A stretch of 39,764 bases of DNA from Bacteroidota bacterium. GTDB taxonomy: Bacteria > Bacteroidota > Ignavibacteria > Kapaibacteriales > NICIL-2. Both the position numbers and the translations under genes were made by a program. The first letter of the stretch is position 1. The number at the start of each line of letters is the position of its first letter. Below are positions 13,152 through 39,764 of the stretch, piece by piece. The DNA lies in the NCBI GenBank assembly GCA_019695345.1, contig JAIBAE010000004.1:1-39764 (forward strand), read 5' to 3'. Below the pieces are notes generated by a model. That model ran no database searches. It saw only the letters and a list, made by a program, of their open reading frames with translations, and was not told the DNA's origin.

Positions 13152-15497
13152 ATGCTTAATCGAATTCTCTTGTTTGTGTTTGTCGCTACATTAAGTAGCC
13201 ACTCGCTCTTTTCTCAGTGGTCTATCCGCCATGTTTATCCGGAATGCTATACACTTAATGATATTGATGTACACAGTACATCGAATCATGGTATTGCGGT
13301 AGGTGAATATGGTGCGTATAAGATTATTGCAGGAAGTGATACTACAGGTATGGATCACTTCACGTGGACAAGTAGTAGAATTCAAACTGATTTTAATTTA
13401 TATGCTGCTAAAATGATTAGCGCAGATGTAATCATTGTTGCGGGCGATAAAGGAACAATGTTTAAATCCAACGACTATGGCAAAACATGGAAATCTGTTT
13501 CTGTGCCAACAAAGGAACAAATACGTTCGGTGGACTTTTTAGGTCTGCAACGCGGTATCGCCGTAACAAATAATGGGACAGTACTTACAACGCAAGATGG
13601 TGGTGATACATGGCTTGCTAACAAACAAATCTTAGATGAAAAATTAGAGCGTGTGAGATGTGTGAACGATACAACGTGGATAGCTGTGGGTGAGTGTTCA
13701 TCGAACTATGCAACACTATTTCTCTCCCGTAATGGAATTGATTGGGTTAAATATATTGATAATAACCTCATGTCTCCACGGTTAAACGACATAGTTGTGG
13801 CGAAACCGATAGGGAATACTATTCCAGTAATTTATGCTGCCGGCGACCACTGGGCAGTTTTAAAATCAACTGATTTTGGTAAAACGTGGGAGCAAATGGT
13901 AATCTCTAACTTGGATGCACAGCAAAATAGTGAGTATTTAAGTTACGGTTTTTCGATGGGTGTAAACGGACAGTTTGGAGTTTTTCAGTCAGGTGACCCG
14001 GAAGGGTGGGGATACACAGTTGCATTATTTACCACTAATGGTGGAGTTACGTGGACTAATTACAGAAATGGTTTAATGGCAGCCCCAGCCGATGGTATGT
14101 ACAATTACCAGTTTTATTCCGATTCCGGATTTGTTGCATGTGGTTATTTTGGTGAAATTTCAGAGGTAAAATATGAGTATGTATCGTACTATAGCAGGTA
14201 TGATTATAATTATACATATAACATGGTGGCATCGCCGATAATACATACAATTCAGAAATTTGATGATGATAGATTTGGAATTATTGCAAGTTATAGTGGT
14301 AGAGTGTCATGTGCTATCAGTGAAGATAAAGGATTATCGTGGAAGAGATTCTTTCCGATTGGGGACAAGTTGCAATGGACAATCACTAATATTCAATCTC
14401 CCGATTTAAAAACTATTATAGTAACAGCCGACTCCACGAATACACAGCAAACAAGTTCTGATACGTGGGTTACTCGTGCATATGCTCATATAGCACGTTC
14501 GGTTGATGGGGGTAACACATGGGAATTAAAAAGGATGGACAGCACAAGTACATGGTTTAATCAAAAAACATTTTTCAAAATGTTTGATTCAAATAATGGT
14601 TTGTTAATACCCTTTGGACATTACATATATAGTACATCCGATGGTGGGGCAACATGGAATAAGAAACCGTACAGTATTCAAGGAGCCATATATAGTAACT
14701 GTGTCAGAGTTAATTCAATGAAGGAATATGAAGTTGTTATATATGATACTACTGCCAAGATAAATAGATACATTAAAACAACAGATGCCGGAGATACATG
14801 GACTAATTTGGATTACAATACAGATGCTCAGACTCGTGGAATAGTAACAAAAGGTATTGATGGTACTTTGTCTGTAGTTTCATCGTATAATGATAAACCT
14901 AATTCAATTGCAAATGATTCAATATGGATTTCGAGAGATAACGGAACAACTTGGAAGTTGCAATACGAACATAGCTATCCAATTACGGAAAAATTTTATT
15001 CTCCATATTTCAGACATACCGTTGGAATATCGGGCAAGTATGGGTTTTATGGCACAAGAGGAAAAGGACTTTTTACGATAGATAGCGGTAAAACATGGAC
15101 AGCCGATACAAACTTTTTGCATTTATGGTCGCGTTATTGTGGTCCTGTGGATATGGAGTGTTCTTCGCCTTCAACATTTTTAATGGCATCGGGCGATTAT
15201 ATAGTGTTTGAATACGATGCCTCAAAAATTGTTTCGGATGTTTATGAACCACCGGTTCATAAAGATTCTAAAATTTCATTACAAACCACCAATATTAATG
15301 ATGTTCTTACTGGTACATCCACAGTAGATATGAGTTTGATACTATATTCTTTGGATGGTAAAGAAGTATGGAATGGGAAAATTGATGCCGGAAATACATT
15401 CCAAATTTCAACTCGCAGTTTCCCAAGTGGCGTTTATGTATTAACTGCAACGCATAATTCTTCAACAAGTTCAACAACGATTAACATAGTTCATTAA
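13152..15497 (+). CDS. Asp-box (Ycf48/BNR-like) T9SS protein, paralog 1
   Basis: 781 residues. The signal peptide ends near residue 21 (LFSQ). At least ten Asp-box turns of the form SxDxGxTW (for example SNDYGKTWKS, TQDGGDTWLA, STDFGKTWEQ, SRDNGTTWKL) mark one or two beta-propellers over residues 30-700. The last 75 residues are a type A T9SS sorting domain (SLDGKEVW, then SGVYVL). Asp-boxes here are structural turns; the conserved sialidase arginine triad was not seen, so no hydrolase activity is claimed. It is likely surface exposed. Its paralog starts 13 bases downstream, forming a two-gene operon. Confidence 0.85.
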   Translation: MLNRILLFVFVATLSSHSLFSQWSIRHVYPECYTLNDIDVHSTSNHGIAVGEYGAYKIIAGSDTTGMDHFTWTSSRIQTDFNLYAAKMISADVIIVAGDKGTMFKSNDYGKTWKSVSVPTKEQIRSVDFLGLQRGIAVTNNGTVLTTQDGGDTWLANKQILDEKLERVRCVNDTTWIAVGECSSNYATLFLSRNGIDWVKYIDNNLMSPRLNDIVVAKPIGNTIPVIYAAGDHWAVLKSTDFGKTWEQMVISNLDAQQNSEYLSYGFSMGVNGQFGVFQSGDPEGWGYTVALFTTNGGVTWTNYRNGLMAAPADGMYNYQFYSDSGFVACGYFGEISEVKYEYVSYYSRYDYNYTYNMVASPIIHTIQKFDDDRFGIIASYSGRVSCAISEDKGLSWKRFFPIGDKLQWTITNIQSPDLKTIIVTADSTNTQQTSSDTWVTRAYAHIARSVDGGNTWELKRMDSTSTWFNQKTFFKMFDSNNGLLIPFGHYIYSTSDGGATWNKKPYSIQGAIYSNCVRVNSMKEYEVVIYDTTAKINRYIKTTDAGDTWTNLDYNTDAQTRGIVTKGIDGTLSVVSSYNDKPNSIANDSIWISRDNGTTWKLQYEHSYPITEKFYSPYFRHTVGISGKYGFYGTRGKGLFTIDSGKTWTADTNFLHLWSRYCGPVDMECSSPSTFLMASGDYIVFEYDASKIVSDVYEPPVHKDSKISLQTTNINDVLTGTSTVDMSLILYSLDGKEVWNGKIDAGNTFQISTRSFPSGVYVLTATHNSSTSSTTINIVH

Positions 15498-15510: not shown

Positions 15511-17835
15511 ATGCTTTTAAGAATAAACATCCTTCTGGCGTTGCTGGTAGGTAGTACAGCATCGCTTTTTTCTCAGTGGTCGTTAGTTCACGTAAATCCT
15601 GATTCATACGCATTGAATGATATTCATGCAGTAGGTACGTTAAACCAAGGTTTTGCCGTTGGTGATTACGGCGCTGTTAAAAAGATAACGGGAACAGAAA
15701 ATACCAATGGCATGATACATTACACTTGGACTGTTAGTAGAATTAAAACCGAGCAGTCGTTAAAAGTAGTACGCATGCTAAAAGAAAACACTGCAGTTAC
15801 AGCAGGGGAATCCGGAGCGATGTACAAAACAACCAACTACGGAACAACATGGAATAGAATCCCAACTCCTACAAACGAAACTATCGTTGCACTTGAATTT
15901 GCTAATGGGAAACTTGGTGTAGCAATCACAGAACAAAACACAGTTCTCATTTCAAATGATGCCGGTGGTACATGGACTATAAATAACGAAAAACTACCTG
16001 AAAGTAAACTACGTGTAAAGTATGTTAATGATACAACTTGGATAGCGGCTGGAACCTGTTCGAACGGTAAAGCAACAGTGTTTGTATCAAAAGACAGAAT
16101 TACATGGAACGCAGTAGTAGTTAATAGCGTTGAAACACCACGCCTGCAAAGTATTCAGGTTACATATCCAAATAATGCAACTACCCCAACCATACTTGTT
16201 GCAGGTGACTACTGGGCGATGATGAAATCAACAGATTTTGGTGCAACGTGGGAAAAAGTTGTAGTCGATAATATGTTTGCCTACCAAACACCCGGATACG
16301 AAGGATATGGCTTTGGTATGTCGCCCGATGGGAAGGTAGGAATGTTTTTAAGCCGTGAACCGAACAGTGTTCGCACCCATGCAGTTTCGTTATACACAAC
16401 CAATGGCGGAGAATCGTGGACTGACTTTAGAATCCAAAGAACCTCATTTAATGGGGACCATTCCAATAACTACTGCTTTACCTCCGATTCCGGCTTTGTA
16501 GCGTGCGATATGTATGGCGGAGTATATGAGAATCAATATAGCACGTATGCTACATTTCTTAACTTCTATACTTACAGAGAAAGTAATTATGGAGGTTCGT
16601 TTGATAAGATATATAGATTTGATACTCAACGAATAGCTGTTTTTCCTAATTCAAATACCATTACTTTCTACCAATCACAAGATGAAGGAAATACTTGGCA
16701 ATCATACTATCCCTATGGAACAACAGGTACGTGGAATAGAGGCGAGTTATTCTCACCTGAGCCGGGTGTGTTTTATGTAACATCAGGTAAAGACACTTCG
16801 TATCACGTTGGCAATACATATTACACTGCACAGTCGGCGTACATTACAAGAAGTACTGATAACGGAATAACATGGAGTCGTCAAAAACTTGATGGCTCAA
16901 TTTCTGTGAGTGCATTTAAAATGTTTGATAAACAAAATGGAATGTTGTTAACTTCTGGTGACTATTATCAAGTAAGTACCAATGGCGGTGCTTCTTGGAT
17001 ACCCAAGGCATATAACAAACTTCCAAATTGCACGTATGTAATGGGTGTTAGAATTATGAACAGCTCAACATTCGAAGTAGTTATGTATGATACTTCTACA
17101 CGTACTAATCGTTACCTTTATACAGATAACGAAGGACAATCTTGGAAAGAACTGAATTATAACGACCACATTTTTGCAAGAAACAGTGCAATACGTAATC
17201 CCGATGGTGCGCTGACGTATGTAACTACAACCACAGGTTCTAATTATACTGGGCTGGATACTGTTTGGATTTCAAAAGATGATGGAACTACGTGGAATGT
17301 ATTACACACCGCAAAATTCGACTCCACCCAACGCTTTAATAAAACCTACAGTAAACTGTCTGCAGCATTAAATGGAAAGTATGGGTTTTACGGCGGGCTT
17401 TCTAAATGTCTGGTAACCAGTGATAGCGGTAAAACATGGGTAACTGATACAACCTTTTTATCATTGTGGCGTAATTATGCTTGCGGTCCCGTAGATGTTA
17501 TCTATACAAATAACAATGAGTTCCTCATGGCTTCGGGTTCTGGAGTATTGCTTAAGTACAATCCATTTAGCACAACATCCGATATCCACGAAGAACCATT
17601 AGCAAACGATAACACTGTTACACTAAAACAGGTGGGTAACACTGTAACTCTTCACTCTGCTTCAACAGTACCTGTAAGTATTTATAGCATAGATGGAAAA
17701 GTACTCTGGAGCGATACAATCGAACAATCAGCAACTAAAGAATTTTCGGTGCAAGAGTTTGCGTCGGGTGTTTATGTTGTGCAGTATATGCATAATGGCG
17801 TTGCGTATGCAAAAAAGTTTAGCATAGTTCGGTAA
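15511..17835 (+). CDS. Asp-box (Ycf48/BNR-like) T9SS protein, paralog 2
   Basis: 774 residues, collinear with the gene before it from the shared start (SLFSQWSLVHVNPDSYALND against SLFSQWSIRHVYPECYTLND) to the C-terminus; identity looks like 40-50% by eye. It has ten Asp-box turns (TTNYGTTWNR, STDFGATWEK, SKDDGTTWNV and others) and a T9SS type A sorting domain at the end (SIDGKVLW, SGVYVV). AGGAG at 15500-15504 sets the start. The pair arose by tandem duplication and then diverged, mostly in surface loops. A terminator follows at 17851. Confidence 0.85.
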   Translation: MLLRINILLALLVGSTASLFSQWSLVHVNPDSYALNDIHAVGTLNQGFAVGDYGAVKKITGTENTNGMIHYTWTVSRIKTEQSLKVVRMLKENTAVTAGESGAMYKTTNYGTTWNRIPTPTNETIVALEFANGKLGVAITEQNTVLISNDAGGTWTINNEKLPESKLRVKYVNDTTWIAAGTCSNGKATVFVSKDRITWNAVVVNSVETPRLQSIQVTYPNNATTPTILVAGDYWAMMKSTDFGATWEKVVVDNMFAYQTPGYEGYGFGMSPDGKVGMFLSREPNSVRTHAVSLYTTNGGESWTDFRIQRTSFNGDHSNNYCFTSDSGFVACDMYGGVYENQYSTYATFLNFYTYRESNYGGSFDKIYRFDTQRIAVFPNSNTITFYQSQDEGNTWQSYYPYGTTGTWNRGELFSPEPGVFYVTSGKDTSYHVGNTYYTAQSAYITRSTDNGITWSRQKLDGSISVSAFKMFDKQNGMLLTSGDYYQVSTNGGASWIPKAYNKLPNCTYVMGVRIMNSSTFEVVMYDTSTRTNRYLYTDNEGQSWKELNYNDHIFARNSAIRNPDGALTYVTTTTGSNYTGLDTVWISKDDGTTWNVLHTAKFDSTQRFNKTYSKLSAALNGKYGFYGGLSKCLVTSDSGKTWVTDTTFLSLWRNYACGPVDVIYTNNNEFLMASGSGVLLKYNPFSTTSDIHEEPLANDNTVTLKQVGNTVTLHSASTVPVSIYSIDGKVLWSDTIEQSATKEFSVQEFASGVYVVQYMHNGVAYAKKFSIVR

Positions 17836-21434: not shown

Positions 21435-24400
21435 TTATTTTTCTATAACTACTCGTTCCCGTTGAGTAATTCCTGAATTGTTTGTTGCGATAATAAAGTA
21501 TGTACCGGATGCCATATCCTCAGTTAAAAGTTGAATAGTAACATCTGAACCCGATATTTCCTTCTTATGTGTTGTTATTGTGTTTCCAAGTACATCTACT
21601 ACCGTGAATTCTATATGTTGCGGACTATTTGTAATGAGTGATATTGGAATGTAATCGGACGAAGGTTGTTTGGTTATAACCATGTGGAAACTTTCAGCAA
21701 GTTTTAGCTGTGCCCAACTGACGCAGGATTCAACATTAAACAATCCATCTTTTGTATCAATCTGATATGGTTTTACTTTAGGCATTGTTAATGTTACAGG
21801 TTTGCTGATATGAACATCGGTTGAGTTCGGTACGTTTTGCATTCCGCGTACAGTTGCATAAAATAATGTATCTGTTGCACCCAGTTGCGTAACAGACGTA
21901 TCTTGTATGGTAACCTGCACACCGCTGTTGGTATGAATAAATGGTTGGATAATTTTTTGTGTTGCTTTTAGAGTGTATAACTCTTGAATCTCCATTACAT
22001 GCGCATCGTACTCAAGGTTTACGGTGATTGCTGTTGGAGTTGTTTTCCAGAGTGCTGTGTTTGCAGTGTTGTTAGTTGTTAGATAAAAAGGGATAGTGGT
22101 TGTATCGTTTACATAAACAGAGTAGAGACCCGAGTTTTTATCGTTTCCAACTTGTAAGGCTCCGTTGTAAAACTCCGTAGGTACATTAGCCGAAAATTCC
22201 AGTACTGTTGTTTTTTCGCACACCGATTTTTCTTTGATGCTAACATGCGCAAGCGCTGCTCCTGTTTTTTGTGGTTTAAAGGTAACGGTAAATGTAACGG
22301 GCTTACCTTTCATAACAATTTGCGGAACGAAGTTTGTTGTAAATGCAGTTCCATCGCCATCAACTATATCTAACGAGATGAGTTCGCGTGGATATTGTGA
22401 TGTATCTGTAACGGTGAACGTAAGTGTTTTTATTGTGTCTTGCCATACATCACCAAATTGTAACGTTGTTGGCGAAATGATTAACTCCGGTGCTACTATC
22501 TCAGCTTGTACATCAATTGCCACAGTTGTTGAACAGATGCTTCCCGTCAAGATAAATTTCTCAAACACTTTACCAACCGTTGAGTTTTTTGGTGAAAATG
22601 TAATGATAGCAGTTGCAGTACTACCGGCCGGAACTGTAAGTGTTTGTGCATTGATTGAGAACTCTTTTGCAGATGTAAAACGAGCAACAGTTAAGGTTTC
22701 ATCAATGCTACCACTATTGGTAAAGCGAACTGTAAAGGTTGAATCGGGTGAACAAATTTCTGCTACACCAAAATCTTTGAGAGTATCTGTAGTTGTTATT
22801 TCTGTTTTGTGGAATTCTGCTGAGATTGGAATTTGTTGCTGTGTACCTGCAAACATTTTAGCAAACGAGAATGTGAGTTGCGCATTTTCGGTTCCTTCGG
22901 TTTGCTTAAATGCTCGAACAATAATCTGTACCGGACTTCCGGCTATTATGCTTACAGGGAATTGAGTTGGAGATATTATTGAGAATGAAGTTCCGTTTTG
23001 AATCAAGTTGGCAGAGAGCAATGTATCTACATCGCTACCTTTGTTAGTTATGGTTAGTGTATCAAAACTAACTTTAGGAACACACCGTACCAAGCCAAAG
23101 TTAAGAGACGTCTTATCCCAAACAATTTCTGAGTTAGTAGATTTTGCTGATACAGGTACACATAATGCCGTTGGACATTTTCCTGATACTTCAAAACACA
23201 ACTGACCATCAAATTGTTGATTGTCTTTGGTTGGTGTTAACTCTACGGTAACTGTTACTTTATTAGTTGGAGATAACGTAAATGGTAGTTGTGGGGATTT
23301 TGAAATTTTCCAATCCGGGTTTGCTGGTAAAAGGGTAATGTTACTAATGATTGCATCAGCACTTCCGGTTGACGTTACTTCAACATCAAACGTTTTTGTT
23401 GTGGCGGTTTTAACAACTGCAGAAATATTTGTTGGATTTGCAGTAATAGCTGTTGTTATTCCAACACCACGTACACGAATAAACTTCTCAACTCCACACG
23501 GCTGTAATTGTATTCTGATAGAGTCAATAACCTCACCCGATGTTTTAGGACTAAAAGAAATATTGAGTGGAGTTTTATCGCCTGCTGTTATAGTAACAGG
23601 TAATGAGGTAACTGTTGATACAGTGAACTCAGGCAGTGCATGGAGTACAGTGATGCCATCAATAGTAGATGCAACAATACCTTTGTTCAGAATATCGGTT
23701 GTCATTTCGCGCTTAGAGCCAACACATACTTCGCCAAAATCAATTACAGTATCTGCTTGTGTTATTACCGGTACTTCCGATAGTGCTTCTATACTAACAA
23801 ACCAAGGATTTTTTATACCTTGATGAGAAGTGGTTAAATCGTTATTATTAATCTGAAGACGAATATTCCTTGCTCCACCAAGCGTAGGTGCAAACTGTAC
23901 TTTAATGTATTTTGTTTCACCACGCTTAATGATAACAGGATACGGCTCATTGGTATTCCATCCTAAAATGCTAACATCATTACTTCCGGGATTAAATATC
24001 ACATTATCAATACGTAAGTCATCGTTCCCTGTGTTGGAAACCGGTATGGAGTCAACATCAATACTCTTACATTTTGATTGAAGTTGTAATCTATTGATGG
24101 AGTTGATAATAGGTGATATACCATAAACCTTAAACGTTATAAACGTATCTCGGTCGCACGGGGAAATTCTGAATAAATACCGTGAGGTTGTCCAACCTGT
24201 ATCAGTTGGTGTAGTTGTGAAGTCAACACGCACACCGCCAGGAGGAATATCTATAGGTAATGTTCGAAGGGTGTAGATATCATCACCCGATTGCTTTTGT
24301 ACTAAGGTTATCTGGTCGGTAAAAGTAGATGAATTATTCCATACAGTACTTAGCGTAACAGCATTTCCAACTTTAACATTATTTACAATTACCAATGTAT

Positions 24401-25736
24401 CATTAGGAACAACCACCGACGACCCGCGCAAACTACCTGTTAAAGAAACTGTAAAGATAGTTCCATCAGGAATCAACGTAACTTGTAACGATGCGTTCTT
24501 TGTACCACCGGTAGTTGGTTGAAACTTCACAATAAACCGTACCGAATCACACGAACCAATGTTCATGGAACTTGATGTAGGTTGTATTACGGAATAATGC
24601 GAGGCATCTGCACCAACTAATTGAAATGTTGCACCTACTCCGTACCACGATTTATTCTTCACCCACAATGTATCATACTTTTCTATTGGTGGGCATGCTG
24701 AACCAAAGTTCATTGATGTTTTTGTTATGGTACGTTGGTTAGGTCCTATTTTGTAAACGCCGCTACCAACTACAAACCCTACCGAATCATTTACAAACCA
24801 CAAATCATCAAAGTTTCCTTCCAAGCCACAATTCCGTAAAGCCCAGTTTGTTCCGCCATCCGATGTGTACCAAACGCTACGGTTATCACCACATATCCAA
24901 CCTGTGTTGCTGTTTAATAAAAATGTTCCGTACATAACAACGCCAGTGTTAAAGTAATTCCATGTGTTTCCATTATCCAAGGTAATACGTGCACCACCGC
25001 CACCACCTCCGCCGCCATTGCATAAAGTACCGGCTGTAGGGATAAGCATTGTGTTGCTATACCACGATAACTCCTCATTCCAAACATTTGGACCTGATGT
25101 ACACATCACCGTCCATATTTTTCCGCTGTCGTTTGTTTCCCATATTCTACCACTGCTTGCAGCACGTCCATACCCATTGTTCTGAAGTATCACATCTGTT
25201 AAACCACTATTAGCAACAGAGTCTTCGTAAATTATCCAGTTGGCGCCGGCATCGGTCGTTCGGAAAAAGTACTGATGGCTCGTGCAACCGCCAACTAAAA
25301 ACACACCATAATTCGGGTTCAAAAAGTAACAACCCCACGGCGATTGTCCTGCCGGAATCGTTGGCGTAATATTCGTCCACGATACACCACCATTGGTAGA
25401 TTTAAACACACCGCACGGACCTGAACAATAACCATTCTGAGTATCTAAAAATTGAACACTCTCTAAATGCCCGTCGCTTGGAGTAGTATAAGGTACTACC
25501 GAACCTTGCCATGTGGTACCACCATCGGTTGTTCTAACCACATAACCGGAAAAACCACATACCCAGCCATATTGTGGGTTGTTAGGTAAGAAGAAAGCAT
25601 CAAGATAATACGAAGTAGATGCGCCAAATACTCCCGGTAGGTTGCACTTATTCCACGACTGTGAAGTTGCAAAAGGCGAGTTCCAACAACTTATTGTTAG
25701 TAACAACAAAGCTATACTATAAAAGCGGTTCTTCAT
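21435..25736 (-). CDS. Giant T9SS protein: Asp-box propeller plus HYDIN-like Ig array
   Basis: 1433 residues. A signal peptide (1 to about 25) leads into a propeller to about residue 335 with Asp-box turns (TTDGGTTWQG, STNGGVSWTN, TSDGGTNWAL). A long array of HYDIN/choice-of-anchor-D Ig-like domains follows to about residue 1190, each with a DFGxVCxxS-like strand and a late FxPxxxG strand. A cohesin-like region precedes a final type A T9SS sorting domain. An eight-Gly run at about 240-247 lies in one propeller loop. AGGAG five bases before the ATG fixes the start. It is probably a surface adhesin or scaffold; no enzyme motif was seen. Confidence 0.85.
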   Translation of the reverse strand: MKNRFYSIALLLLTISCWNSPFATSQSWNKCNLPGVFGASTSYYLDAFFLPNNPQYGWVCGFSGYVVRTTDGGTTWQGSVVPYTTPSDGHLESVQFLDTQNGYCSGPCGVFKSTNGGVSWTNITPTIPAGQSPWGCYFLNPNYGVFLVGGCTSHQYFFRTTDAGANWIIYEDSVANSGLTDVILQNNGYGRAASSGRIWETNDSGKIWTVMCTSGPNVWNEELSWYSNTMLIPTAGTLCNGGGGGGGGARITLDNGNTWNYFNTGVVMYGTFLLNSNTGWICGDNRSVWYTSDGGTNWALRNCGLEGNFDDLWFVNDSVGFVVGSGVYKIGPNQRTITKTSMNFGSACPPIEKYDTLWVKNKSWYGVGATFQLVGADASHYSVIQPTSSSMNIGSCDSVRFIVKFQPTTGGTKNASLQVTLIPDGTIFTVSLTGSLRGSSVVVPNDTLVIVNNVKVGNAVTLSTVWNNSSTFTDQITLVQKQSGDDIYTLRTLPIDIPPGGVRVDFTTTPTDTGWTTSRYLFRISPCDRDTFITFKVYGISPIINSINRLQLQSKCKSIDVDSIPVSNTGNDDLRIDNVIFNPGSNDVSILGWNTNEPYPVIIKRGETKYIKVQFAPTLGGARNIRLQINNNDLTTSHQGIKNPWFVSIEALSEVPVITQADTVIDFGEVCVGSKREMTTDILNKGIVASTIDGITVLHALPEFTVSTVTSLPVTITAGDKTPLNISFSPKTSGEVIDSIRIQLQPCGVEKFIRVRGVGITTAITANPTNISAVVKTATTKTFDVEVTSTGSADAIISNITLLPANPDWKISKSPQLPFTLSPTNKVTVTVELTPTKDNQQFDGQLCFEVSGKCPTALCVPVSAKSTNSEIVWDKTSLNFGLVRCVPKVSFDTLTITNKGSDVDTLLSANLIQNGTSFSIISPTQFPVSIIAGSPVQIIVRAFKQTEGTENAQLTFSFAKMFAGTQQQIPISAEFHKTEITTTDTLKDFGVAEICSPDSTFTVRFTNSGSIDETLTVARFTSAKEFSINAQTLTVPAGSTATAIITFSPKNSTVGKVFEKFILTGSICSTTVAIDVQAEIVAPELIISPTTLQFGDVWQDTIKTLTFTVTDTSQYPRELISLDIVDGDGTAFTTNFVPQIVMKGKPVTFTVTFKPQKTGAALAHVSIKEKSVCEKTTVLEFSANVPTEFYNGALQVGNDKNSGLYSVYVNDTTTIPFYLTTNNTANTALWKTTPTAITVNLEYDAHVMEIQELYTLKATQKIIQPFIHTNSGVQVTIQDTSVTQLGATDTLFYATVRGMQNVPNSTDVHISKPVTLTMPKVKPYQIDTKDGLFNVESCVSWAQLKLAESFHMVITKQPSSDYIPISLITNSPQHIEFTVVDVLGNTITTHKKEISGSDVTIQLLTEDMASGTYFIIATNNSGITQRERVVIEK

Positions 25737-33634: not shown

Positions 33635-35644
33635 TTATTCTACCGGAGTCTCTATGGTAATTTGTACAGTTCGTGAATAGAAGCGTCCTTCGGGAGTTGC
33701 GTTATCGTACAGTGGCTCGGCACCACCCACGCCCTGCGCCGAAGTATCTGGAAGTTTAAGCAAACGGGAAATCTCCTTTGCACGCCGCTCGGAGAGTTTT
33801 TGGTTGTACTCTTCTAAACCATACTTATCGGTGTAACCACGCACTGTAACTGTTGATGTTGGTTGTATCTGAGTTTTGATAACATCCAGTATGCGTTGGT
33901 TACTTGAGTTTACATCGCTCTCGTTGAACTTGAATACAATAAGCGAATATTTTTTAAGCACAAATTTTTGAACGGTGTTTTGCTGAACCGTAACTGGTTG
34001 TGATTCTGTGGTTACCTCGGTTCCTTTGTTGTCGCGTATGGTGAGCTTGCAAACCAATGGCGTTCCAACATCTGGGATTGGTATTGAGCGTTCATCCCAT
34101 TTTTGATTGATGACATGCGGAAGCGAATCTTTGCCGGTTATGGAAGCGAGTTTCTTTGCGCCTTGTGTTAACGCTAACTCCCATGATTTTACGCCTGCTT
34201 CTGTGGCAACATCGGCAGTAAATCCCATGCTAATATTGTTGAGTGTTTTAGATGTATCCTGAAACACAAGTGGTTCGTAGAGAGTTAAATCGTTGAACTG
34301 AACTTCTACTCGTCGGTTTTCCTCTTCACCTTCTTTGGTTGTAACATTTGATTGCACTTCCGGTAAGTTGCGGGCAACTATGCCAATACGTTTGGTATCA
34401 ATCTTCCAAATGTTTACAAGGTAGTCGCGTATTGTTTCTGCTCGCTTGCGCGAAAGTTCAAGGTTTCCTTTTTCGGTGCCTGAATTTGAGTTACAACCAA
34501 TTAATGTGATTTTAGATTTTGATTGTCGCAACCTGAAACCAAGTGTGTTAAGTGAGTTGTAATAAATGCCAAGTGTTCCTTTCCCTTCAAGTTGTGCAGG
34601 GCGGTACGATGCCGCTTGCGTCTCATCTAATTGTGTATAGCGTTCTGCAATTGCAGCCGATGAACTATCAAAGAAAATGTAGTTCATCATTGCAAACATA
34701 GTTGTTGCTACAACGTTTGTTACAACTACTGTATCAATTGGTTTTCCGTTTTGACCTGTAAGTTTTATCTCTAATGGTTTAACAACCTCAAGTTTTGCAG
34801 GTGGCGGTGGTGGTGGCGGTGTTTTAACTGCGATAATTACCTTTGGTGTATCAATTACAGGTGGCGGTGGTGGCGGAAGTTCCGGAAGTTTATCTACTGA
34901 GTAATATGAGTATTCAATTGCAATACCGGCACGGTAACTTTGTACCGTCCACGGTGCAGATGATATGATGTTTCCAAGAGTTGGAGAGTATGATACAGAT
35001 GGAACCAAATGCCATTTGTTTGATGTACTAACGGAAATTCTGTATGATACACCAAGTTGTAACGATGGCAATAGTGAATTTGCTAACGGTAAACTACCAC
35101 TGCGTTGGTTACGTAACTTACTGCCATTAATAAACACGGCCGATGATGGCGAAAGTATTTGTTCCTTTTGTATAAACGTTGGTGATAGCACAAAGCCAAA
35201 GCCAAAACCAACATTTGCTTGTAGTTCGTTCCAAACCCGCATGCGTGCAATTGCTGAGATATTCAATACAGGAATAGATGCTGCAATAGTATGTTCAAAG
35301 CTCCCTTGCAATACCGAACCATCGTCATCCATTGTTTCCGGTTCGAGTGTTTTTAGCGTTCCGTTGCGTTGGTTAAAAGCCGATTCAACACCTATACACA
35401 AATCATCGTGTAAAGCAATTGGTAATAACCACTGCGCTTGTAAATTAATACCGGTACCTGTTCCATTTTCGTAACCGGGGCAACACGAAGGCACGCCTTC
35501 TAAACCATTTAGTTGTGTTGAGTGATTGTTAATACCAAACGCCCCGCCACCGTTTACATGCCAACGCAAGTGGGGAAGTGTATCTTGTGCAACAGATGGC
35601 AAATACAAGCAAACAATACACGCTATGGTTAAGAGTACTCTCAT
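33635..35644 (-). CDS. Outer-membrane protein with two OmpA-like domains
   Basis: 669 residues. Signal peptide to about residue 19, then a beta-rich region to about 245 that looks like a small outer-membrane barrel. A Pro-rich linker (two runs of six or seven Pro) spans about 251-284. The first OmpA-like domain is at about 325-450 (LELSRKRAETIRDYLV, then EEENRRVEVQF), the second at about 555-665 (VTVRGYTDKYGLEEYNQKLSERRAKEI). A double peptidoglycan-binding C-terminus is uncommon. The start ATG overlaps the previous stop by one base (TAATG), so it is translationally coupled to the T9SS gene before it. Confidence 0.88.
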   Translation of the reverse strand: MRVLLTIACIVCLYLPSVAQDTLPHLRWHVNGGGAFGINNHSTQLNGLEGVPSCCPGYENGTGTGINLQAQWLLPIALHDDLCIGVESAFNQRNGTLKTLEPETMDDDGSVLQGSFEHTIAASIPVLNISAIARMRVWNELQANVGFGFGFVLSPTFIQKEQILSPSSAVFINGSKLRNQRSGSLPLANSLLPSLQLGVSYRISVSTSNKWHLVPSVSYSPTLGNIISSAPWTVQSYRAGIAIEYSYYSVDKLPELPPPPPPVIDTPKVIIAVKTPPPPPPPAKLEVVKPLEIKLTGQNGKPIDTVVVTNVVATTMFAMMNYIFFDSSSAAIAERYTQLDETQAASYRPAQLEGKGTLGIYYNSLNTLGFRLRQSKSKITLIGCNSNSGTEKGNLELSRKRAETIRDYLVNIWKIDTKRIGIVARNLPEVQSNVTTKEGEEENRRVEVQFNDLTLYEPLVFQDTSKTLNNISMGFTADVATEAGVKSWELALTQGAKKLASITGKDSLPHVINQKWDERSIPIPDVGTPLVCKLTIRDNKGTEVTTESQPVTVQQNTVQKFVLKKYSLIVFKFNESDVNSSNQRILDVIKTQIQPTSTVTVRGYTDKYGLEEYNQKLSERRAKEISRLLKLPDTSAQGVGGAEPLYDNATPEGRFYSRTVQITIETPVE

Positions 35645-36723
35645 TATTTTTTGACGATAAACTGATGTGAGAGAATTTGCGTTGGCGTGCGAAGAATCAA
35701 AAAATATTCACCGCTTGCAACATTGCTTACATCTGCCTGAATAACGTGTTCACCAATTCTGGCATTCTGTTCGGAATATAGTTGCGTTGCAACCCTGCCA
35801 TGTAAGTCAACTAACGCCAATGTGGTTTCGCCAACTTCACCAAGTTGAATATTTACTGTTGTAGAACTTACTGCCGGGTTAGGAAACGCATTAAGAAATG
35901 CTGTTGGCTTAACTGTGTACACTAATCGTGTTGTATCACCTTCGTGGCATATTCCGGTAAAATCTATTCTTCCATGTTGTACGCTTATATCTGCTTTGGG
36001 TGCTTCAATCCAACGGAATGATTCTATTACTAACGGCGAATACACATCATTCCCCAGTTTGGTTAAAAAGGGAAGTGTTATGAGTGTATCGTTTGTTCCA
36101 AGTTTGCCAGTCACAGTTATTCTGCAAGAATCGTTTGAGCGATTACACTGATATTGCGTTGATGATAACACGTGTGGATTATAGCGTATTACTGCTTCAA
36201 AAGTTTTTGCCTTGACGCGTTGCAAATCTTTCGATTGAAGTAAGATGAGCGGGATGTGTACATTTACGCCAATATCTGCAACAACACTTGGAATCATAAC
36301 AAGCGATGAACCATTAGGTAAACCAAACAGCGATTTTACCCCATACCAAAATCCAATGTTATGGAGTTGTTGCGCATTACTAACTCTTCCAATGGCACTT
36401 TGCCCAACGGTAGAATTCATCTTCATCGAGTCGGATTGCGCGTAACGTCCGGCATTACTTATTACCGAGCGTTTAAGTGTTTGTGCCTTCAACTGCGTTG
36501 TGGTAACAACCAAACACAAAACAAACACAACACAACATAGAGTAAGTAGCACATTTGTTTTTGCTACCGCAGAGCGCACCAATCCTTGTGTGTTGGCAGT
36601 GCCATACATCGGCGCAACAGGTCCGCAGTGCGTCGCAAAACGCTTGGCGCGGACTGAGTTGCCGCGCAGTTGCGGTTGCTTCGGCAGTGGAGGGGTACCC
36701 ATATTTATATTCTGATTATTCAT
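35644..36723 (-). CDS. T9SS sorting-domain protein with a repeat-derived N-terminus
   Basis: 359 residues from the ATG at 36723, with AAGGG five bases before it. The first 50 residues, however, are encoded by R2/R1 repeat DNA, and a conventional signal peptide starts only near residue 49 (V/MRSAVAKTNVLLTLCC, hydrophobic core, then LKAQ). GTG at 36579 or ATG at 36609 are alternative starts. Next comes the STVGQ-IG-GFWYG motif common in T9SS cargo, then a cohesin-like domain at about 145-230, then a type A sorting domain from about 280 (NAFPNPAVSS). It is the middle gene of a three-gene operon. Confidence 0.75.
   Translation of the reverse strand: MNNQNINMGTPPLPKQPQLRGNSVRAKRFATHCGPVAPMYGTANTQGLVRSAVAKTNVLLTLCCVVFVLCLVVTTTQLKAQTLKRSVISNAGRYAQSDSMKMNSTVGQSAIGRVSNAQQLHNIGFWYGVKSLFGLPNGSSLVMIPSVVADIGVNVHIPLILLQSKDLQRVKAKTFEAVIRYNPHVLSSTQYQCNRSNDSCRITVTGKLGTNDTLITLPFLTKLGNDVYSPLVIESFRWIEAPKADISVQHGRIDFTGICHEGDTTRLVYTVKPTAFLNAFPNPAVSSTTVNIQLGEVGETTLALVDLHGRVATQLYSEQNARIGEHVIQADVSNVASGEYFLILRTPTQILSHQFIVKK
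36562..36705 (-). repeat. R2 copy 3 plus R1 end inside the T9SS gene
   Basis: On the minus strand, R2 starts at 36705 (AATATGGGTA, then CTGCCGAAGCAACC, CTGCGCGGCAAC and GTCCGC to about 36646). An R1-like end follows, GGTGCGCTCTGCGGTAGCA, at 36562-36580. Elsewhere both elements are intergenic and follow stop codons; here the block follows the adhesin's stop and overlaps the N-terminal codons of the next gene. Confidence 0.65.
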
Positions 36724-36731
36724 GGTAACCC

Positions 36732-39700
36732 TTAGTGCAATACTCTGAATAAACGTTGTGCTGTTGTGTTGCTACATTGTAAGTTGGCAACGTACCAACC
36801 GCTGTTGAAATCTTGTACGCCAACTTCTACTTCGTAATCGCCTTTGTTCATTGGTACGTTTTGCAACGCTGTGTGAATTGTTTCGCCCGATGATGTTACG
36901 ATGGTTAGAGTGATGTCGGTTTTGAGTTCTGTGTGGAACTTAATAACAACCGTTGATGAAGCCGGGTCGGGCACGATTGCCACAATGCGTGCAAGTGCAT
37001 CGTTAACTTTTGTTGTTGTTGCAGGTTGTTCCTGTTGTACGGTGTTGCTTTCCAACCGTTGCAGACGAGATTCTAATTGAGCATTTTTGTTTTCGAGTTC
37101 TTTAATGCGCGATTCTTGCTGCTCGTTTTGTTTGATAAGTTGTTGCGATGAATACAATGCAACACCTGCTACATCGAGCGCGGCAAGATACTTGTGGCTT
37201 TCTGCATTATCTAAAACACCAGTGCCAAATGCCTCGCGGAAGTCTTCGGCAAAAGGTGATATGTGATACTCTTGTGTTTTTTTGTAGAACCAACCACGTA
37301 AATCTAACCCTTTTACTTTTTGTAACATCGATGCGCTATCGAGCGTTGCAAATCTATCTTTAAATGTTCGTGAAGAACCATCCGTCCAAACCCCACCAGT
37401 TGTAAGGCGCGCACCATTTCCGTTTGTTGTATTTGTACCCACGTGAATAGGGAAGTCTAGGTCCTCACGGTTTACACCAAAGAATCCATCGTTAGTTGGC
37501 TCGAAGAAATAGACTCGATAATTTTCGGTAACAGTTGGGTCAACCGAATTACCAAAAGTAAAGTTGTACAAACCGTTTGCTGTGCTACCAAACCCGCCAA
37601 CTATTGAGTATGAGGCGGAAGCTGTGTTCCCATTTCCGCCAAGTACTGTTGAATAGGTTGCGCTAGCAGTATTGGAACCTCCACCTATTATACTAGCATA
37701 TGATGTACTAGACAAATTACCGTTACCACCCAACACAGTAGAATAGCTACCAGAGGCAGTGTTGCTATACCCTCCGGTAACAACTGAATACAAACCGCTT
37801 GCCGTATCTATATACCCGCCTGCAACTACACTGGCAAATCCACTTGCATAATTTCTATAACCGCCACCCACAGTTGCATCGCTATTTGCAGTTGAGTTCT
37901 GGTATCCTCCGGCAATGGTGTTATAAATTGCTGAAGTTGAATTACCAGTTCCACCACCAATAACACTGTACGTACCACTAATAGTATTATCAGCCCCACC
38001 TCCTATGAAACCGTGGATGCTTGAAATAGTATTACGATTACCACCGGCAATAACTGATGTATCTGCCGATATTGTATTGGTATTACCACCGCCAACAAAT
38101 GAATAATCACCACCGATAGTATGATTGTAACCACTTACAATTCCGGAGTAGGTTACAGTGTTGATTGAAGAGAACCGTGAGTTTACAATAGTATTGTAAT
38201 CTCCTATAATTGTATCTGCATACCCCGCGCCCATAAAGCCGTAATGGCCTTGTAACAAGTTAAGTTCGCCTGCACCAATCATTGAGTAGTGTGCAAAGCT
38301 ACCGCCAGTTTGGAACTTAATGCGGTTGGCGTAACCCGTACCTATTATCGAGTACCCAACACTATCCATAACATTGGATTGTCCGTTGGTAATAGTACTA
38401 TAAATGCCTTTAAGCGAATTACCATATCCAGTACCAATGATGTTGAAGTCGTTTGTGGTTTCATTACCTGAAACAAACGTGAAACCATTAGCTGCAATTG
38501 AATTAAAATATCCACTTGTAATTGTACTGTAGGTCACATCGTTGTCAATATTATTGCCTTGTCCATTTGCAATAAAACCGAAGTGGGAAAGCGAGTCGAT
38601 GGTATTAGAATTGCCATTCAAAATCGTTGCATTAAAGGCTCTGCCTTTATTTCCAGCACCGGAGGCAATAAAGCCGCCCGACATAGAAAGATAGTTCTCG
38701 TGTCCGGCAAGGATTGCAGAATGCTGACCTACAAGTGTATCGTTATAGCCACTGCCTATGGTAGAAAAATCAACGGTAATAAGGTGGTTGTATCCATTAA
38801 GGATATTGGAATAGGAGGCATTGCTAATCTTATTATTGTAACCATTACCTATGTAGTCATACTGGTCATTGACCGCATCAATTTTATTTAAGTTGCCACT
38901 AAGAATAGTGCTATAGCCGATTGTGCTAATGGTGTCTGTCCAGCCTGCCCCAATAAAATTAAGCCAGCCATATGTCCTATTTCCATAACCTGTTATAATT
39001 GCGCTGTAATTCCAGTTTTGACTATATCCAGTATTTTTAGTTCGGGCAATTGTGTTCTGATAGCCACCAACAATCACTGCACCTTCGGCTGTTGTATCTA
39101 TAGTATTACTATACCCGCTTCCAATAAAAGAGTATGGCGAAGATTTTTTTATACTATGAAGAGCACCTGCACCTATGAATGAGTAGGTTGAAGTGTTGCC
39201 TATGCTTTGAGTAATACCTGATCCAATAAATGAATAACTGGAACCGATACCTATGCTTAGAGTATTTCCTGCACCGATAAAGGAGTTACCGGAACCATTA
39301 CCTATGCTTAGAGTATTTCCTGCACCGATAAAGGAGTTACCGGAATTGAAACCTATGTTCATGCCACCACCAGCACCAATAAAAGCAGCATTAGATAGAG
39401 TATCTATTTTTTGCAAGATTCCACTACCAATGAATGTTTGAGATGACCTTGTGCTGTCAAACTGACCTGTCCCAATAAAAGCATCATATAGTCCAGATAC
39501 ATAACAAGAAGTTCCCGTAAGTATAACGCCATAGAAGTCGTTATAAATTTGGTTAGCAATACCACTTCCAATTAAACTTCCATATGAGCGAAGTTGATTA
39601 TTAACCCCATTTAGTATTGTAGAATAGTTGTCAGGTAAAACTCCAAGGGATGCACTATAAGTATAAATGGAAGGATTTATAGGCTTCAAAATAGCATTAC

Positions 39701-39764
39701 CCGTTCCACTAGTAATTAAATCATGCCTGATATTCTGGTTAATGGTGTTACCGTAACCATTTAC
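36732..39764 (-). CDS. Giant beta-roll adhesin with S74-like chaperone, coiled coil and T9SS domain (5' end outside window)
   Basis: At least 1010 residues; the frame is open to the window edge and the 25 codons before the first internal TTG already fit the repeat, so the true start lies outside. About 775 residues are beta-roll repeats of 15-17 residues with G-G-x-x-N and Y-S-x-V/I positions, like YadA-type trimeric heads. An S74-like intramolecular chaperone region follows, with the Ser-x4-Lys pair conserved (Ser at 37374-37376, Lys at 37359-37361). A heptad coiled coil lies at about 37040-37150 and a type A T9SS sorting domain ends the protein. Probably a trimeric surface fibre. It heads an operon with the next two genes. 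Confidence 0.85.
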   Translation of the reverse strand, partial: VNGYGNTINQNIRHDLITSGTGNAILKPINPSIYTYSASLGVLPDNYSTILNGVNNQLRSYGSLIGSGIANQIYNDFYGVILTGTSCYVSGLYDAFIGTGQFDSTRSSQTFIGSGILQKIDTLSNAAFIGAGGGMNIGFNSGNSFIGAGNTLSIGNGSGNSFIGAGNTLSIGIGSSYSFIGSGITQSIGNTSTYSFIGAGALHSIKKSSPYSFIGSGYSNTIDTTAEGAVIVGGYQNTIARTKNTGYSQNWNYSAIITGYGNRTYGWLNFIGAGWTDTISTIGYSTILSGNLNKIDAVNDQYDYIGNGYNNKISNASYSNILNGYNHLITVDFSTIGSGYNDTLVGQHSAILAGHENYLSMSGGFIASGAGNKGRAFNATILNGNSNTIDSLSHFGFIANGQGNNIDNDVTYSTITSGYFNSIAANGFTFVSGNETTNDFNIIGTGYGNSLKGIYSTITNGQSNVMDSVGYSIIGTGYANRIKFQTGGSFAHYSMIGAGELNLLQGHYGFMGAGYADTIIGDYNTIVNSRFSSINTVTYSGIVSGYNHTIGGDYSFVGGGNTNTISADTSVIAGGNRNTISSIHGFIGGGADNTISGTYSVIGGGTGNSTSAIYNTIAGGYQNSTANSDATVGGGYRNYASGFASVVAGGYIDTASGLYSVVTGGYSNTASGSYSTVLGGNGNLSSTSYASIIGGGSNTASATYSTVLGGNGNTASASYSIVGGFGSTANGLYNFTFGNSVDPTVTENYRVYFFEPTNDGFFGVNREDLDFPIHVGTNTTNGNGARLTTGGVWTDGSSRTFKDRFATLDSASMLQKVKGLDLRGWFYKKTQEYHISPFAEDFREAFGTGVLDNAESHKYLAALDVAGVALYSSQQLIKQNEQQESRIKELENKNAQLESRLQRLESNTVQQEQPATTTKVNDALARIVAIVPDPASSTVVIKFHTELKTDITLTIVTSSGETIHTALQNVPMNKGDYEVEVGVQDFNSGWYVANLQCSNTTAQRLFRVLH
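39250..39345 (-). repeat. Near-perfect 51-bp tandem repeat within the adhesin
   Basis: A 45-bp identical core occurs at 39250-39294 and again at 39301-39345, a period of 51 bp or 17 codons. It encodes the FIGAGNTLSIG unit of the beta-roll. The two units are identical at DNA level while neighbours differ, a sign of recent slippage or unequal exchange. Confidence 0.9.

Follow-up and report, generated by a model that had tools for sequence, protein, structure and literature searches.

We identified, in the genome of a Kapabacteria-like Bacteroidota, a gene for a giant fibre protein in which a strictly conserved and putatively self-cutting S74 chaperone sits between the fibre and its supposed type IX secretion system (T9SS) sorting tag. 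The arrangement is common in one bacterial order, being found in 39 of the 84 S74 proteins surveyed, and it raises the question of how a tag can direct sorting when the protein's own chaperone is made to remove it. We give even chances to the combined reading that this chromosomal gene yields a giant adhesive fibre on the cell surface, of the mosaic adhesive trimer (MAT) type, exported by T9SS through its tag, cut by S74 in a trimer-dependent manner and anchored by its N-terminus.

The window analysed comprises the first 39,764 bases of a contig (C55) of 122,754 bases, and the nearest named relatives of the organism are Candidatus Kapabacteria. A sequence-only reading had placed the gene at 36732-39764; the minus-strand frame there is indeed open across 1,010 aa and leaves the window at its edge, but this part, the last 1,010 aa (3' end) of a larger gene truncated by the window edge, makes up less than a third of the whole. 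The whole open reading frame comprises 3,584 codons (L028:736-11487; approximately 3,574 aa counted from the first Met) and extends beyond the window to about C55:47456. From the N-terminus to the C-terminus, the protein contains a signal peptide (recognised by eye in the full-length fibre), a YQG-type N-terminal domain (with IPKTINYQGALA...), phage-tail-like repeats that include GDLTGTYPNPT..., beta-roll stretches, a connector, S74, a coiled coil and a type A T9SS sorting domain. The full protein has three beta-roll stretches, the last and longest of which occupies most of the window part. The features in the window are as follows.

36732..39764, minus strand: fibre gene, 3' part, open to the window edge
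37545..39764, minus strand: left-handed beta-roll head repeats of the UspA1/YadA type, period about 15 aa
37377..37544, minus strand: connector between head and chaperone (NLVFGxxVxPTVTExxRVYFF...NGNGAxLTTGGVWTNG), conserved in alignment A2 and a low-confidence part of the model
37374..37376, minus strand: predicted nucleophile Ser, from codons, conservation and aligned positions; predicted cleavage directly in front of it, after the Gly codon 37377-37379
37359..37361, minus strand: predicted catalytic Lys (Ser+5)
37182..37376, minus strand: S74 (intramolecular chaperone auto-processing) domain
37032..37181, minus strand: long helix (222-271 of the model), predicted trimeric coiled coil closing the S74 unit
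36735..36992, minus strand: type A T9SS C-terminal sorting domain, a seven-stranded beta-sandwich

An 84-aa phage-tail-like unit (DGSITTAKLATNAVTTAKITDANVTTPKLADGSVTSAKLNQMSAT...) was present in approximately a dozen near-identical copies at about residues 600-1550 of the full open reading frame, suggesting recent growth in stalk length. Matches to DUF6087, MobC, pectate lyase and polymerase over the repeats were taken as repeat or composition matches.

The head matched the UspA1 head of Moraxella (3pr7) in a phmmer search of the PDB (E=2.7e-17), and the predicted model that includes the head (pLDDT 87.4) matched 3pr7_A by fold (Z=19.1). On the basis of these sequence and fold matches, the repeat period of 15 aa and the Pfam UspA1_rep match of one paralogue's repeats, we assign the head to the UspA1 kind of YadA-family beta-roll, which refines the YadA-like beta-roll proposed earlier. 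The Pfam match of the fibre repeats is LbR_Ice_bind, and the model superposes on 3ult, a grass ice-binding protein, with an rmsd of 1.5 over 109 residues, as would be expected if the repeats were a monomeric beta-solenoid of the grass type, in a chain exported and working as a monomer. We consider this very improbable, because trimeric UspA1 matched better both by sequence (E of 0.4 for 3ult) and by fold (Z of 16.7 for 3ult), and a trimeric chaperone and coiled coil directly follow the repeats. A trimer is well supported by relatedness to the UspA1 head, phi29 gp12 and the S74 chaperones, all of which are trimeric. The neck appendage gp12 of Bacillus phage phi29 resembles the fibre in having a beta-roll followed by a self-cleaving C-terminal chaperone (head Z=17.6), although it is a phage structural protein. 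Part of the connector aligns with the gp12 region preceding the cleavage site (3gq7 552-691), the alignment reaching residue 691, beside that site. The phi29 chaperone fold differs more from other S74 chaperones (PMC4690869).

The Moraxella UspA1 and YadA trimeric autotransporter adhesins resemble the fibre in their head repeats, by sequence and by fold, and carry a 12-strand type V membrane anchor at their C-terminus. The fibre has these YadA-type repeats, a type Vc feature, but no type V anchor, and ends in S74, a coil and a T9SS domain. No match to YadA_anchor (PF03895) was found in the genome, and the fibre C-terminus is a beta-sandwich sorting domain rather than a YadA_anchor barrel.

For the S74 domain, no Pfam match to PF13884 was reported in the window protein; the cut-off of that family (22 bits) was passed by the paralogues on C5 (30.8 bits) and C128 (25.7 bits). 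The S74 region, which was barely covered in the structure-match list for the full model, was predicted alone (37005-37418; pLDDT 91.7). Fold comparison of this model revealed endosialidase NF 3gw6 and MYRF 7dc3 (Z of 6.7 each), T5 pb1 4uw8 (Z of 6.3) and GA-1 3gud (Z of 6.1), after which the next structure entry had a Z of only 2.4. These values are moderate, and their weight comes from the fact that all four best entries belong to one family. Searching the PDB with a profile of the S74 alignment A2 returned nothing up to E=10. Since only S74 chaperones matched above a Z of 6 and paralogues exceeded the PF13884 cut-off, the earlier assignment of an S74-type chaperone holds; the fold is of the CIMCD type and is followed by the predicted trimeric coiled coil. 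The Pithovirus and Solivirus YadA-head/S74 proteins in BFVD share the S74 subtype, and one is named for a YadA-like head; they are viral, however, and the likeness covers the S74 part alone.

MYRF (ICA domain, 7dc3) was the first structure match by Foldseek and is in this sense the nearest solved S74 fold, and the helix after S74 resembles the helical end of its ICA domain. In MYRF, too, S74 and a coil lie between a trimer and the portion that keeps it at the membrane, and the ICA domain cuts only as a trimer, freeing the N-terminal trimer from its membrane tether (PMC8326128). MYRF differs from the fibre in being a eukaryotic transcription factor anchored by a transmembrane helix instead of a sorting domain.

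The Ser/Lys motif at the start of the domain is SSRTFK (S-x4-K), and the codons lie where the sequence-only reading had described the pair. Assuming ungapped starts of the aligned ranges, the Ser aligns with S911 of endosialidase NF, S587 of MYRF and S1264 of T5 pb1, and the Lys with K916, K592 and K1269; for S911/K916 and S587/K592, a requirement or a catalytic role in cutting has been reported, and for S1264 a requirement. Among 87 in-frame relatives from many phyla, the Lys was present in all and the Ser in 86, the sole exception being a Cys (TNGCSRTFK) in L070 of Desulfuromonas sp. SDB. Four sequences (L095, L109, L122 and L127) were left out of this count, a wrong reading frame or frameshifts being behind their seeming loss of the pair. 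This strict conservation strengthens the prediction of S74 cleavage, and the alignment of the pair with three structures whose Ser is needed for cutting favours the adhesive-fibre reading. In T5 pb1, the neighbouring chain contributes an arginine, located 14 residues ahead of the Ser, that completes the site. An arginine of this type was not conserved at the matching place in the aligned relatives, which weakens the reading; nevertheless, MYRF cuts even though its structure paper mentions no stalk residue close to the reaction centre (PMC8326128).

The C-terminal 86 aa lie within a stretch that scored 64.2 bits against a profile of the other T9SS sorting domains of this genome, whereas the best of 2,000 shuffles scored 10.7 bits. 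The fold matched the PorU C-terminal domain (CTD; 6za2, Z=9.8) and the RgpB CTD (7pq4), and Por_Secre_tail matched with E=6.3e-5 and 23.6 bits, below its curated cut-off of 27; an NCBIfam search of the window protein yielded no sorting-domain match. The sorting domain named by the sequence-only reading was thus recovered by profile and by fold, and profile or fold comparison bore out all four of its parts (beta-roll head, S74, coiled coil and sorting domain) and their order. SprA, PorU and PorV are encoded in the genome and the fibre carries a signal peptide; judging from its sorting domain, the fibre is probably exported by T9SS. The presence of the T9SS core and the failure to find a YadA anchor in the genome also favour the adhesive-fibre reading.

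The same complete type A route (SprA, PorU and PorV) is consistent with a different outcome, in which S74 acts as a trimerisation chaperone without cutting, and PorU, acting once export is complete, takes off the sorting domain and joins the coil end to surface LPS, so that the fibre is held C-terminally in the manner of other type A cargo. Two further observations fit this explanation: all five subfamily paralogues retain an intact sorting domain, and the position of the oxyanion arginine is not conserved. We nevertheless consider it rather unlikely, because Ser and Lys persist, with hardly an exception, in very distant relatives, which folding alone would not require, and the relatives closest in fold do cut.

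The five subfamily members in the genome, including the window fibre and one truncated by a contig end, share 57-65% identity over the C-terminal 289 aa, and four more proteins combine a different, canonical S74 with a sorting domain. We surveyed the order and found S74 proteins in 44 of 123 genomes; with the sorting-domain profile built from the present genome, a sorting domain was detected in 39 of the 84 S74 proteins with a complete end. The layout of head, S74, coil and T9SS domain, for which a survey had been proposed, is therefore not unique to this fibre, given the five paralogues here and the 39 of 84 in the order. The S-x4-K pair was kept in all 84 complete proteins, including the 39 with a sorting domain, a conservation partly favoured by the search profile itself. 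With the pair kept in the fused proteins as in the rest, there is no sign that fusion to the sorting domain relaxes the protease, and a link between the fusion and a dead protease was not supported.

In the named collection, 5 of 80 relatives had a sorting domain, all of them Bacteroidota or Kapabacteria. Most of the others have nothing beyond the coil; some, belonging to Planctomycetota and Chloroflexota, finish with a hydrophobic stretch and basic residues. In L069, L102, L107 and L125 of these two phyla, a hydrophobic stretch with arginines after the coil is apparently a different surface anchor replacing the T9SS domain. On a tree built from 78 S74 units, no fewer than four changes in the sorting-domain label were needed, and well-supported branches force two of these. 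Because the ends vary across relatives and the label changes at least four times, the chaperone is the constant element and the end after the S74 unit is exchangeable, swapping with lineage while the chaperone stays. Moreover, T9SS cannot be the general exporter of the fibre family, because most relatives, many of them in Bacteroidota, lack a sorting domain.

The closest described relatives of the fibre are the MAT fibres of Bdellovibrio, which self-cleave at the equivalent Ser. MATs of the S74 subgroup (Bd3182; PMC10769870) are likewise cell-surface fibres of a free-living bacterium, with a signal peptide followed by a conserved N-terminal domain, a long phage-like stalk and a C-terminal S74 with S-x4-K, and they similarly carry alternative tips on one fibre plan. 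The superfamily layout (signal peptide, N-terminal domain of approximately 130 aa, long stalk, and S74 or another tip) matches that of the fibre, the likeness being one of layout alone. Unlike the fibre, MATs end at S74 or an adhesive tip, with no T9SS tag described, and the tip upstream of S74 is a triple beta-helix instead of a beta-roll. Bd3182 self-cleaves, and replacement of its Ser (S782A) leaves it uncut and mislocalised (PMC10769870); the existence of this self-cleaving bacterial S74 surface fibre favours the adhesive-fibre reading, which would mean that phage-like MAT-type fibres occur in Kapabacteria as well as in a predatory bacterium. The combination of S74 with T9SS was found in none of the open-access papers searched.

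Tail-fibre PHROG matches over the stalk could also point to a phage tail-fibre gene or a prophage remnant with a chance T9SS-like end. This explanation is barely credible, since no phage genes were found among the window genes tested, the protein has a signal peptide, five paralogues share the same operon and the sorting domain scores far above shuffles. A prophage tail-fibre origin was thus rejected, the tested genes being housekeeping and T9SS-related. The gene content of the window, including ribosomal S2, EF-Ts and cytochrome oxidase, indicates a core chromosomal setting.

Two further genes follow the fibre as a cassette.

35644..36723, minus strand: gene 2, a 359-aa T9SS-tagged protein (TIGR04183, 32.2 bits, over cut-off), 8 bp past the fibre stop
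33635..35644, minus strand: gene 3, a 669-aa outer-membrane protein with two OmpA-type stretches (PF00691, E=7.1e-25)

The ATG of gene 3 overlaps the stop of gene 2, and the order of the trio is kept after all five subfamily fibres in the genome and one in a second genome (G002). Both partner genes also follow two beta-roll fibres (L282 and L283) that have a different tip and no sorting domain. The tip of these fibres (L282:5067-9680 and L283:3-3335) is VSPRGDMEDGIIVASARVSAADNVRIKFVNSTNGAINPAAVNFDITVIQP.

According to the adhesive-fibre reading, the signal peptide would take the chain into the periplasm and the C-terminal sorting domain would recruit it to T9SS (SprA, PorV and PorU), while the coiled coil and S74 would gather three chains and set the register of the beta-roll head. 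A correctly formed S74 trimer would then trigger the Ser/Lys cut between Gly and Ser (WTDG|SSRTFK), removing the chaperone, the coil and the sorting domain and leaving a mature fibre that still has its head and N-terminal domain. It is this N-terminal domain that would hold the fibre, possibly by way of the two operon proteins, in place of a C-terminal link made by PorU; the constant N-terminal domain of MATs is thought to sit at the cell (PMC10769870). The T9SS tag would thereby play the tether role that the membrane anchor plays in MYRF. The order that we favour is export by the tag followed by trimer-dependent cutting. We propose, tentatively and at somewhat less than even chances, that this order amounts to a secretion-coupled folding checkpoint, in which T9SS exports the chain or nascent trimer and only a correct trimer triggers the S74 cut that frees the fibre from its sorting signal. 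With such a checkpoint, T9SS tags would have, in addition to PorU, a second means of removal that is encoded in the substrate, and the fibre would be a trimeric T9SS cargo.

T9SS cargo is believed to acquire its fold in the periplasm before passing through SprA (PMC10202324; PMC7463736). The SprA barrel has an interior of about 7 nm (PMC7463736) and the comparable MAT trimer is 4 nm across (PMC10769870), so that width alone would allow a trimer to pass; the sequence-only argument that trimer folding must follow export is therefore not forced. An S74 trimer that cut in the periplasm would lose its tag before export, which weakens the adhesive-fibre reading, and its chief weakness is that the many relatives without a tag must cross the outer membrane otherwise. 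In a rival account, S74 would cut in the periplasm before or during export, with the sorting domain only bringing the chaperone trimer to the secretion ring or remaining non-covalently bound, and the fibre leaving by a common route, perhaps aided by the OmpA-type protein. In favour of this account, most relatives lack a sorting domain, as do the L282 and L283 fibres in the same kind of operon, and the OmpA-type gene is constant. We regard this as improbable, because a T9SS tag has been described as necessary and sufficient for secretion in Bacteroidota (PMC10202324) and no fibre exporter was identified. The arrangement of S74 between fibre and tag makes testable the handling of trimers by T9SS, the timing of cargo folding and the PorU-free removal of a protein's own sorting domain.

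The OmpA-type family (about 670-740 aa) was found in 28 of the 31 genomes searched (own and relatives), with 13 strong matches in the present genome (G000; contigs C55, C148, C128, C5, C156, C141, C10 and C126). The gene often lies directly 3' of one for a T9SS-tagged protein with an end like that of gene 2, a pairing of cargo and outer-membrane protein. Further large, probable surface proteins are encoded nearby in the window, at 13152-15497, 15511-17835 and 21435-25736, with BNR/Sortilin-type and ASH/HYDIN Ig-type repeats, and at least one of them carries a T9SS domain.
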